From Prochlorococcus marinus str. MIT 0919 (GTDB lineage: Bacteria > Cyanobacteriota > Cyanobacteriia > PCC-6307 > Cyanobiaceae), in assembly GCF_027359375.1 (NCBI RefSeq), contig NZ_CP114779.1, positions 1,302,001 through 1,366,000 on the forward strand: a DNA stretch of 64,000 nt, read 5' to 3'. Made by a program: the position numbers and the translations under genes. Position 1 is the stretch's first letter, and every line of letters starts with the position of its first letter. This document shows, piece by piece, positions 3,790 to 7,440 of the stretch. The notes below the pieces were generated by a model. The model did no database searches. It was not told where the DNA came from and saw nothing but the letters and a program-made list of their open reading frames with translations.

Positions 3790-4212
3790 CTAATCTTGGA
3801 TATAAGCAATTTTATTGATTAGACAGTATTCCGCTTTTTGTAGTTCTCTTCCTAGATACAGAGCATGATCTATACATTCGGTTTTGATTTTATTTTCACC
3901 TTCTGTGAGTTGTATCCCAACTTCTTTAGCACTCCGTCCTTGATAAACCGCAATTGGTTGACGCTTTTTATTTGTTGTACATTTAATTGGCTTCCCAGTT
4001 TTAGGATCTGTAGCCCTTCCAAGTTCATCTAGATTGTTCGTGTAATGTTCTACGATTATTGTATTGCCCTGTAGATCTAATTTGATTATGAAATAACCAT
4101 TTGGGTCTAGATGAATGAATCTTTTTGAGTATTCAGAATCAATACTTATAATTTCACTAGTTAATGAATTTGAAGAAAATTTGTTTCTCATGACTGTTAA
4201 TACAAAGAGCAT
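3790..4212 (-). CDS. DUF4346 family protein
   Basis: A 140-residue soluble protein whose C-terminal half carries DHALYLGRELQKAEYCL, which I recognise as the signature of DUF4346, a domain found across cyanobacteria and in some methyltransferase-associated proteins. The N-terminal half reads as a beta-rich segment (DPNGYFIIKLD, then NTIIVEHYTN). No catalytic motif is evident and its role is unknown. An in-frame ATG eight codons in (about 4191) is an equally plausible start. The gene stands alone, with about 150 bp of AT-rich spacer upstream before the next gene. Confidence 0.75.
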   Translation of the reverse strand: MLFVLTVMRNKFSSNSLTSEIISIDSEYSKRFIHLDPNGYFIIKLDLQGNTIIVEHYTNNLDELGRATDPKTGKPIKCTTNKKRQPIAVYQGRSAKEVGIQLTEGENKIKTECIDHALYLGRELQKAEYCLINKIAYIQD

Positions 4213-4365
4213 TTAATGAAAATTCATAAGCAATTTATAAAAAACCATATAGCGATTTCTACATTGAATAAAATCATGACCTGTAAGATACTTTTTAAGT
4301 TGAGAATATTATCAACTTAAAAATAGGGAATACTGACTAAATAAAAATATTGCTAATGTATTAGA

Positions 4366-4608
4366 TCAGGTTGAGATAAAGTTTTTTAAAGCGATTAAAA
4401 GAATAAGGTTTATTAATATGAATGATATGTAAACAATCCTTGGATTCCTTAGACCTTGAGGAGCGGTCATTTCCATGCCAAATATCCTAAATAGGACTTG
4501 TTTCTGGTCATCTCTATATTGCAAAAGCCCCTTCTTAGAAGAGCTTATATTCCCTTCTGAATTATTGGAAGTTCCCATAATCAAAGTTAATTTATGTATT
4601 TCAATCAT
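4366..4608 (-). CDS. Small single-helix membrane protein of unknown function
   Basis: An 80-residue protein with a polar N-terminal half and one hydrophobic C-terminal helix (IVYISFILINLILLIALKNF). I do not recognise the family. Its ATG overlaps the TGA of the preceding acyltransferase-like gene in an ATGA arrangement, so translation is probably coupled. An internal ATG before GTSNNSEG (around 4575) is an alternative start. The coupling hints at a shared membrane-associated role with that gene, but nothing in the sequence names it. Confidence 0.6.
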   Translation of the reverse strand: MIEIHKLTLIMGTSNNSEGNISSSKKGLLQYRDDQKQVLFRIFGMEMTAPQGLRNPRIVYISFILINLILLIALKNFIST

Positions 4609-5777
4609 AGTTCTATTTGGTTACTTTTAAATGGGACTTCATTGTTTGATGCATGAATTTCCTCTTGAATGTATAAATTTACCTTAGGCAGCCAAGCTTT
4701 TAAAAGTTCACTCATATGCTTGTTGTACCATTTGTGAAGACTCACTCTCGGAGTAGATATAAAGCCTCTTCGTTTTTTGTGCCTACCACCTGCTCCTGGA
4801 TCAAATTTCTTAATACCATTATTGATTGCCCATTCGATGGGTGAGTAGTAACAAACCTCAAAATGTAAGTTTTCAATGCTTTCTTTAGATCCCCAATATC
4901 TTCCCCACAGCATTTCTTCATTACGCATACAAAAAGACATTGCTAAAGGTTTATCAGGTGCTTCCTTGTATGCACTGAAGAGTACAATCTGATTTTTTGT
5001 ATTTATCAATGCTAATTCGTCAAAAAATGATTTTGTTAAATACTTACTTCCCCAAACTCCCCATTTCGAACAATGTTCTGCATAAAATTCATGCATAGTT
5101 TGTAGTATATTATTATTAACATCATTTCCAGTTATTGCCCTTATACTTATTTTAGATCTTTCAATACTTTTCCTTTCTCTTTTTATATTTCGACGCTGAT
5201 TAGCGTTAAACCTAGCAAGATAATCAGAAAAGTTATTCTCCCCAGAGGATTCCCATAAACTTTGTTGATTTATCCACGCTAAGTATTCTGATTGTTTTAC
5301 TATTTGTGCCCACATATTATCTACATATAGGAAATTACAACTTAAGATTTTATTGGTTATCGCAAATTCATCTATAATATCAAGCATCATTTTTGTTGTC
5401 TTGTTTTCATCTTCTTGAGAAGAAATGAAAAATTTATAACCTTCTATGGGGCTAAGAGGACTCATGCCAATTAGTTTTGGGTAATACCTGAGCTTTAATT
5501 CTTGCGATACTTTTACAAATACATTGTCAAAAATAAATTCTCCATAACTGTGGTTTTTTAAATATAGAAGTGCAATCCCAATAGGCTTGTTTTTCTTCCA
5601 AATACTCAAATGAATGGGTTGCCATCCATTTTTGCTTGAAATACTATCTGAGCTTTCTAATATTTTTAGCCATTCCCACTGAAAAAAAGGATTTAGATTT
5701 TCCCCAACAAGGCTTTGCCAATACTCTTCTGGTATCTCTCTTATTGAAGAAAGCCATCTCACGCTGTATTCACTCAT
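4605..5777 (-). CDS. DUF482/COG3146 GNAT-fold acyltransferase-like protein
   Basis: A 390-residue protein of the family once labelled 'peptidogalycan biosynthesis/recognition' (DUF482), whose members have a FemAB/GNAT-like fold. Recognisable blocks are NPFFQWEWLKILE near residue 30, NQRRNIKRERKS in the middle, LWGRYWGS and FEVCYYSPIEWAI, and FDPGAGGRHKKRRGF near the C terminus. The substrate is unknown; aminoacyl or acyl transfer is inferred only from the fold. The 3' end overlaps the start of the small membrane protein gene (ATGA), suggesting one operon. Confidence 0.8.
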   Translation of the reverse strand: MSEYSVRWLSSIREIPEEYWQSLVGENLNPFFQWEWLKILESSDSISSKNGWQPIHLSIWKKNKPIGIALLYLKNHSYGEFIFDNVFVKVSQELKLRYYPKLIGMSPLSPIEGYKFFISSQEDENKTTKMMLDIIDEFAITNKILSCNFLYVDNMWAQIVKQSEYLAWINQQSLWESSGENNFSDYLARFNANQRRNIKRERKSIERSKISIRAITGNDVNNNILQTMHEFYAEHCSKWGVWGSKYLTKSFFDELALINTKNQIVLFSAYKEAPDKPLAMSFCMRNEEMLWGRYWGSKESIENLHFEVCYYSPIEWAINNGIKKFDPGAGGRHKKRRGFISTPRVSLHKWYNKHMSELLKAWLPKVNLYIQEEIHASNNEVPFKSNQIEL

Positions 5778-5864: not shown

Positions 5865-6542
5865 TCACTTTTTATTTCTTATATAACGTACAAGTAATTC
5901 ATCATTTTCTAATACTTTCGTTTCTTTCAACAACCATTTACTTTCATTGTAACTATCTTTATAGTTTAACCAAGGATAATCACCTCCTAGTATTTTAGGT
6001 GCAATTGTTAGCTGAAGTTCATTAATTCTGTCTTCTATTAAGAATGATTCTATTAATTTAGGTCCTCCAAGAAGAACAATTTTTGATAACCCTAACTTTT
6101 GCAAATCACTTAAGGTTTCAGACCATGTAAACTTCTTCTTTAAAATCATTGTAAATTTATTTTTGACCTTGCTATTTATCTTGTTTTCGTCTTCTGTACT
6201 GATTAACCATCTTTTTACCGGTTGTTTGAAATAATCATACTCTGGAGAGATATTTTGTGATTTTCCAATCACTAGTGATATAGGTTGATTATCTTTGCCT
6301 TCTAAATTTCTTTTTTCGAGTGAATTTAAATTATGAATCAAGCAAATATTTTTAAGAGCTTTTAATGTTCCTGTGCCCATTAGAGTTGCATCAGACCATG
6401 CTAAAGCGTTTTCTAGAACTTTTCTATCACCGATACCACCTATTGTTTGACTGAGACCATTTCTGTCACAAACTCTTCCGTCTATACTAATTACTATTAC
6501 AAGTCTAATATAAGGTGTATTCAAGATATTTTTTTTAAGCAA
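5865..6542 (-). CDS. RibD C-terminal-domain reductase (pyrimidine/pterin reductase-like)
   Basis: A stand-alone RibD_C domain with a dihydrofolate reductase-like fold. The start pattern PYIRLVIVISIDGRV, the D-ATLMGTGTL strand, and the KIVLLGGPKLIESFL nucleotide-binding loop are typical. In riboflavin synthesis this domain reduces the ribosylaminopyrimidine with NADPH, but there is no deaminase domain here, so a separate RibD or a different pterin substrate must be considered. Its start lies 4 nt after the stop of the tandem PTPS gene, so the two are almost certainly co-transcribed, which favours a pteridine role. Confidence 0.85.
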   Translation of the reverse strand: MLKKNILNTPYIRLVIVISIDGRVCDRNGLSQTIGGIGDRKVLENALAWSDATLMGTGTLKALKNICLIHNLNSLEKRNLEGKDNQPISLVIGKSQNISPEYDYFKQPVKRWLISTEDENKINSKVKNKFTMILKKKFTWSETLSDLQKLGLSKIVLLGGPKLIESFLIEDRINELQLTIAPKILGGDYPWLNYKDSYNESKWLLKETKVLENDELLVRYIRNKK

Positions 6543-6546
6543 AATA

Positions 6547-7440
6547 TTATTTTAGAGATTCTAATTCTTGATTTTTTGGATATATCTCCGCTGCGTTATT
6601 TGGACTTTCTTGTAGTCGTACTTTGTATAGAGTTGCACCAAGACTGTTTATTGGCTTCATTAGTTGATCAGATATATAAAGTGCAATGTTCTCAGCAGTT
6701 GGAACACATTTTGCAAAGTATGGAATATCTTTATTTAAGAAAGAGTGGTCGAAAGGTTCAATAATTATATCTTCAACTAAATTTTGCAATGCTGCAAGAT
6801 CACATATCATGCCAGTTCTTGTATTGATTTCTCCTTCAACTGTGATATCCAGGAAATAATTATGACCATGACCATGTGGCCTTGCACATTTTCCATAAAT
6901 TAAATCATTTTCGTTAGACGAAAGCTCTTCTCTTGCCAATCTATGGGCAGCAGCAAAGTGTTTTTGAATGGTTAGATGAGCCTTCATATCATCTCCACTA
7001 TAATCGGCCCACAAGTCTTTTTGTTCATATAGCCTTAAGGATACTAATGGTAAATGCTGTTCTAAACGTTCCCATATAGTTTTGACTAAAGCTTCTGTGG
7101 TTGGTAATGAGCCTTTGGGCTGTGACAAGTCGAATTCTGGCCATGTCTCATTTAGAAATCTAAAATCAAGTTGGTCAGTTACTTCTGCTTTGATGGCATG
7201 CTTTACATCTGACAGATTCAAGACCATTCCATCATTATTCAACTGCCCTTCCATGGAAACAATCAATTCATAATTATGTCCATGCCCTGGTGCTATTGCA
7301 CAATTCCCAAAGCTTGAGACATTATCATCAGGAGATAATTCAGGAAGCCAATAACGATGACTAGCACTAAAGCAGGCTCTTCGTGTAATTACACACAGTC
7401 TTCCTTTCCCATGTTTTGCTGGAGATGTGATCTCAGTCAT
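6547..7440 (-). CDS. Tandem 6-pyruvoyltetrahydropterin synthase/QueD-like protein
   Basis: Two PTPS/QueD domains are fused head to tail in 297 residues. Domain 1 (about 15-145) has the zinc histidines H28, H53 and H55, and cysteine C47. Domain 2 (about 153-290) has H166, H191 and H193, and C185. The catalytic Asp-His pair is intact in domain 2 (FDHSFLN) but reads LDFRFLN in domain 1, so its histidine is replaced by phenylalanine (F93). Family members convert dihydroneopterin triphosphate to pyruvoyl- or carboxy-tetrahydropterin. Domain 1 may be structural or altered in activity. It is co-transcribed with a RibD_C reductase. Confidence 0.88.
   Translation of the reverse strand: MTEITSPAKHGKGRLCVITRRACFSASHRYWLPELSPDDNVSSFGNCAIAPGHGHNYELIVSMEGQLNNDGMVLNLSDVKHAIKAEVTDQLDFRFLNETWPEFDLSQPKGSLPTTEALVKTIWERLEQHLPLVSLRLYEQKDLWADYSGDDMKAHLTIQKHFAAAHRLAREELSSNENDLIYGKCARPHGHGHNYFLDITVEGEINTRTGMICDLAALQNLVEDIIIEPFDHSFLNKDIPYFAKCVPTAENIALYISDQLMKPINSLGATLYKVRLQESPNNAAEIYPKNQELESLK

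Follow-up and report, generated by a model that had tools for sequence, protein, structure and literature searches.

A bimodular PTPS-II with a conserved domain lacking the triad histidine and a candidate RibD_C-type dihydrofolate reductase in Prochlorococcus marinus

Introduction

What does a protein of two fused PTPS domains make when one domain lacks the histidine of the catalytic triad, and what is reduced by the RibD_C protein encoded immediately behind it? These questions are raised by a stretch of 64,000 nucleotides (the window) from the complete 1.72 Mb genome of Prochlorococcus marinus str. MIT 0919 (G000:C1:1302001-1366000). The first gene (6547–7440, minus strand) encodes a tandem PTPS of 297 aa with two PF01242 matches. 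The second (5865–6542, minus strand) encodes a stand-alone, DHFR-fold RibD_C reductase of 225 aa, which matches PF01872 with an E-value of 2.9e-27 and is here considered as a candidate dihydrofolate reductase (DHFR). Its TTG start lies 4 nt after the TAA stop of the first gene, on the same strand. A preliminary description of the locus had recognised the fusion and the spacing correctly, and had proposed that the two proteins form a pair making a reduced pterin other than a queuosine precursor.

The locus also bears on a missing gene. P. marinus is without a recognisable DHFR, the gene being unidentified (PMC1971073), and the DHFR gene has counted as missing from Prochlorococcus, Synechocystis and Nostoc ever since the studies of Myllykallio et al. 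(2003) and de Crecy-Lagard et al. (2007).

The tandem protein is a known enzyme, the bimodular PTPS-II of the BH4 pathway

A dual-domain cyanobacterial PTPS is already on record, and the tandem protein is this known enzyme, a bimodular PTPS-II that acts in BH4 synthesis. The enzyme was described from Synechococcus PCC 7942 by Kong et al. (2006, FEBS Lett 580:4900), as that work is cited in PMC3546692 and PMC5041015, and PMC5041015 reports PTPS activity in vitro for the Synechococcus (S. elongatus) PTPS-II. The window protein shows no difference in kind from this dual-domain enzyme, and an S. elongatus-type genome (G179) encodes an alignable tandem protein of 300 aa. The original abstract reportedly calls PTPS-II bimodular. 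Tandem PTPS proteins were matched in 190 of 194 genomes of the class Cyanobacteriia and in all 94 good genomes of the host's family.

Domain 2 (6571–6990, minus strand) carries the residues of a BH4-type PTPS-II: the zinc ligands His166, His191 and His193, Cys185, the intact pair Asp231–His232 (6745–6750, minus strand; FDHSFLN) and the pterin Glu278. It is 43% identical to human PTPS (E-value 3.3e-33; VIA-align Z of 18.1). Furthermore, both domains of the tandem protein have the spacing C-x5-HGH, which reads C185-ARPHG-HGH in domain 2 and CNNPNGHGH in the human enzyme. Domain 2 would perform the chemistry, converting dihydroneopterin triphosphate into 6-pyruvoyl-tetrahydropterin.

Domain 1 keeps its zinc site and lacks the triad histidine

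Domain 1 (6991–7398, minus strand) is a T-fold domain with the zinc ligands His28, His53 and His55, together with Cys47 and Glu139. In place of the Asp–His pair it has Asp92–Phe93 (7162–7167, minus strand; LDFRFLN), so that the triad histidine is replaced by phenylalanine. The zinc histidines and cysteine of both domains, the pair in domain 2 and Phe93 in domain 1 had all been read correctly in the preliminary description, which held that a histidine in the first domain of close relatives would reduce Phe93 to a local error or drift. Position 93 was compared in an alignment of 111 tandem PTPS proteins drawn from the breadth of Cyanobacteriia: it is Phe in 104 sequences, Tyr in six and Asn in one, and none of the 111 has His. 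Local error or drift is thereby ruled out, and the universal loss of the triad histidine from domain 1 is documented here on these sequences.

Other positions of domain 1 divide into variable and fixed ones. Asp92 is replaced by Asn or Ala in 18 of the 111 sequences, and Cys47 is lost in 10, drawn from nine families, where it is replaced by Thr, Gly, Val, Ala or Asn. Residues His28, His53, His55, Asn97, Thr114, Thr115 and Glu139 are kept throughout (111/111), as are Cys185, Asp231, His232 and Glu278 of domain 2. Mean pairwise identity is 68.8% in domain 1 versus 70.8% in domain 2, with 34 versus 38 invariant columns. Taken alone, domain 1 has no Asp–His pair in any aligned protein and does not qualify as a catalytic PTPS. 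As the triad histidine is never present, yet the zinc histidines and the glutamate are kept and overall conservation matches that of domain 2, domain 1 appears to be a constrained, non-catalytic partner rather than a decaying domain. It would be a catalytically silent T-fold unit under purifying selection, with its zinc site and pterin-anchoring glutamate retained, and it would probably serve to form the barrel and the pocket between the domains. The preliminary description had offered a structural or an altered-specificity partner; the domain looks non-catalytic in every relative examined, and a structural or pocket-holding role is the likely one.

Two other readings of the tandem protein have to be weighed, one concerning its product and the other its working site. 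Automated annotation would call the protein QueD, an enzyme of queuosine synthesis, and it does pass the cut-off of the QueD equivalog model TIGR03367 (122 versus 89 bits). QueD (PTPS-I) has the motif C-x3-HGH, however, and the C-x5-HGH spacing of both domains and the closeness of domain 2 to human PTPS argue against this assignment, as do a separate single-domain QueD-like PTPS and QueF encoded elsewhere in the MIT 0919 genome. Similarly, the PTPS activity reported for Synechococcus PTPS-II (PMC5041015) is at odds with a queuosine role. A QueD role was rejected on the motif and the presence of QueF, and is considered scarcely credible; the NCBIfam equivalog would mislabel the protein. The earlier proposal of a product other than a queuosine precursor is supported by the same evidence. 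The second reading takes issue with the working site of the BH4-type enzyme. The label 'dead domain' needs care, because the PTPS triad is intersubunit, to judge from the title of Burgisser et al. (1995) as cited in PMC2229834, and the cysteine of domain 1 could in principle use the Asp–His pair of domain 2. In that case domain 1 would be catalytically active at a hybrid site, in which its zinc and Cys47 act together with Asp–His of a domain 2 from the same or another chain. Such a site would fit the retention of the zinc histidines and glutamate in every aligned sequence and of the cysteine in 101 of 111. It would also fit the AlphaFold model of the tandem protein (pLDDT 93.5), which superposes over its full length on the tandem T-fold enzymes urate oxidase and FolE2 (Z of ~12 over ~220 residues). 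Against it stands the behaviour of the two cysteines: Cys47 has been replaced in nine families while Cys185 is invariant, and a strict hybrid would need the opposite. Since Cys185 is strictly kept and Cys47 is repeatedly lost, it is argued that the working site is formed by domain 2 with domain 2, and the hybrid site is rather unlikely. From the predicted model, a uricase-like arrangement of the paired domains is a reasonable guess.

A PTPS-III role (the FolB bypass, in which Glu replaces or accompanies the active-site Cys) was also ruled out: the motif has Cys, and FolB, like FolE, is encoded elsewhere in the genome. The single-domain QueD-like PTPS of MIT 0919 (G000:C1:12353-12751, plus strand; L132 3315-3785, plus strand) reads C-KFV-HGY, the last zinc histidine of HGH being a tyrosine.

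The reductase resembles Rv2671 and archaeal Rib7 rather than RibD

The preliminary description would have had to yield if the RibD_C gene were the only riboflavin reductase of the genome. A complete RibD of 363 aa is encoded elsewhere in MIT 0919 (reductase part G000:C1:684036-684650), which rules this out. Stand-alone ('orphan') RibD_C proteins are set apart from RibD by profile A1, which mostly scores 1e-50 to 1e-91 against orphans versus 1e-11 to 1e-23 against the RibDs listed. RibD is expected to have an N-terminal deaminase domain, an alanine at the pterin position and a DDPLLT stretch; the window reductase has 225 aa, Asp39 (6426–6428, minus strand) at that position and no DDP. The DDPLLT stretch is absent from the orphan reductases. 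Every one of the 138 orphans that has a residue at the column of Asp39 carries Asp, whereas E. coli RibD and the three cyanobacterial RibDs in the alignment carry Ala. The protein is not FolA either: it shares the DHFR superfamily fold, but belongs to the RibD_C family and matches only PF01872, not PF00186.

Asp39 aligns with Asp67 of Rv2671 from M. tuberculosis, a RibD_C-fold analogue of DHFR (PDB 4xrb, 4xt4 and 4xt6), and with Asp33 of Rib7 from M. mazei, the residue that is mutated in PDB 5xv0 and 5xv2. Structures 4xt4 and 4xt6 of Rv2671 have dihydropteridine and tetrahydropteridine rings bound. Rv2671 is ~20% identical to the window reductase and shares its fold (VIA-align Z of 23.7, rmsd 2.5, 211 residues), the aspartate and the absence of DDPxLT. 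M. tuberculosis has a normal DHFR as well, whereas the MIT 0919 genome gives no match to FolA (PF00186) at E<=1. By analogy with DHFR, Asp39 is read as holding the 2-amino-4-oxo-pyrimidine. The second gene would specify a DHFR-fold, RibD_C-type reductase for a 2-amino-4-oxo pyrimidine ring, that is, a pterin, and would most likely turn dihydrofolate into tetrahydrofolate in place of the absent FolA.

Archaeal Rib7 (PDB 5xux) is the best structural and profile match, at a Z of 25, and fold alone does not separate DHFR-like from Rib7-like proteins. As Asp39 is also present in Rib7, this residue by itself would also suit a 2,5-diaminopyrimidinone substrate. The two differ in that Rib7 has the stretch ADDPSLTVK where orphan RibD_C has A-H/Y-x-x-T.

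Orphan RibD_C proteins occur mostly where FolA is absent

Among 116 cyanobacterial genomes, strong FolA was found in 16, and in none of the 12 picocyanobacteria of this sample. Of the 100 genomes without strong FolA, 96 have an orphan RibD_C, versus five of the 16 with strong FolA (Fisher p=6e-9), an inverse distribution that held when FolA was shuffled within families (p=3.8e-4) and in a family-state table (p=1.8e-4). At a stricter cut of 1e-45, which drops nine f23 orphans of the 96 positives, a divergent subfamily scoring at E 1e-23 to 1e-32, the counts are 87/100 versus 5/16 (p=8e-6). The f23 genomes, including G199, G232 and G258 (L231-L233), have a divergent stand-alone RibD_C of ~270-290 aa (SSVDGK...GSRSDR) replacing the usual orphan; members that were read have Asp at the pterin position.

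Exchanges between FolA and RibD_C fall inside families f15, f24 and f32. In G240 of f32, FolA (1.7e-45) occurs with a truncated RibD_C remnant of 105 aa (L222, G240:C1:2533315-2541611, 3986-4300, plus strand), which lies directly upstream of FemAB_like and DUF4346 genes, the ancestral locus. A tree of the tandem PTPS shows eight changes of FolA and eight of RibD_C. Its well-supported branches provide only four independent contrasts, three opposite, none in the same direction and one without difference (p=0.25, an underpowered test), and eight pairs read by eye on the best tree gave seven opposite, none the same and one unchanged.

Exceptions are of two kinds. Both genes occur in five genomes, four of f13 and G257. 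G152, G154, G174 and G241 lack strong FolA, and no orphan RibD_C was detected in them. In the complete genome G174 (f25), RibD_C was lost very recently and no strong FolA was gained; its tandem PTPS is near-identical to that of G188 (L253), which keeps RibD_C.

ThyA would demand FolA, and was considered as a confounder. Because ThyA (PF00303) was matched only partially, mostly in ~500-aa proteins, and did not track FolA, it does not explain FolA gain and was ruled out. Partial PF00303 proteins occur in 14 genomes of the class sample, an example being G211:C1:2085592-2086002.

The reductase and PTPS-II as neighbours

In each of the 62 picocyanobacterial loci (family f1) that were examined, RibD_C is the next gene downstream of the tandem PTPS and has the same orientation. 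The two genes are also neighbours in S. elongatus, with a gap of 583; no other locus read has them adjacent. Among the genomes that contributed a tandem gene to the tree, ten have tandem PTPS but no RibD_C; nine of these have FolA, the exception being G174. In G249 and G254, RibD_C is present and a full tandem PTPS is not. As each gene occurs without the other, RibD_C does not depend on PTPS. The idea of a dedicated PTPS–RibD_C pair making one special pterin, put forward in the preliminary description, is not supported by these distributions or by the near-absence of adjacency outside picocyanobacteria; what RibD_C follows instead is the lack of FolA. In picocyanobacteria the operon probably brings two pterin genes together, and the 4-nt gap suggests that the reductase gene is co-transcribed there with that of PTPS-II.

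The commonest conserved neighbour of orphan RibD_C is FemAB_like (4605–5777, minus strand, in the window), found in 48 of 86 loci. PterinBD-DUF4346 (3790–4212, minus strand) is a further conserved neighbour, with DUF4346 in 17 of the 86; recognised folate genes were absent from the commonest neighbour clusters of these loci.

Two other substrates can be set against dihydrofolate. The close placement of the gene behind PTPS, on one strand, in 62/62 loci of picocyanobacteria, together with the adjacency in S. elongatus, would suit a reductase of the BH4 branch acting on the 6-pyruvoyl-tetrahydropterin or dihydrobiopterin that the adjacent tandem PTPS gives rise to, and so replacing sepiapterin reductase. 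The sepiapterin reductase model exceeds its curated cut-off in none of the 116 cyanobacteria, an observation of little weight, as SDR proteins are numerous and the cut-off strict. Such a role sits badly with the ten genomes in which tandem PTPS is kept and RibD_C is lacking, nine of which have FolA, with the converse state of G249 and G254, and with the rarity of the arrangement outside picocyanobacteria; it retains a minor share of the probability. A second riboflavin-pathway reductase of Rib7 or RibD type is less probable still, indeed very unlikely. The Pfam RibD_C match, the match to NCBIfam TIGR00227 below its cut-off and the closest solved structure, M. mazei Rib7, all point that way, but riboflavin in MIT 0919 is already served by the complete deaminase-reductase RibD, the orphan lacks DDPLLT and has Asp where RibD has Ala, and a need for riboflavin leaves the mutual exclusion between the orphan and FolA unexplained.

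A candidate for the missing dihydrofolate reductase

On comparative genomics and residue logic, the orphan RibD_C is probably the missing DHFR, and no paper on a cyanobacterial RibD_C DHFR was found among open-licence publications. A wider proposal stands at somewhat less than even odds: that orphan RibD_C is the sole DHFR of picocyanobacteria and most Cyanobacteriia, that it has been repeatedly displaced by arriving FolA, and that the picocyanobacterial operon with PTPS-II lets one reductase serve both the folate and the biopterin pools.

The tandem PTPS, universally half-dead, is a clear example from nature of a pseudo-enzyme domain that is conserved in fusion with an active sister domain. 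A RibD_C candidate for DHFR may be relevant to the trimethoprim tolerance reported for cyanobacteria, and if true would be an independent further case of a RibD_C protein doing the job of DHFR. Folate synthesis needs dihydrofolate reduction, and a specific candidate for this step would close this gap for photosynthetic organisms that are among the most abundant.
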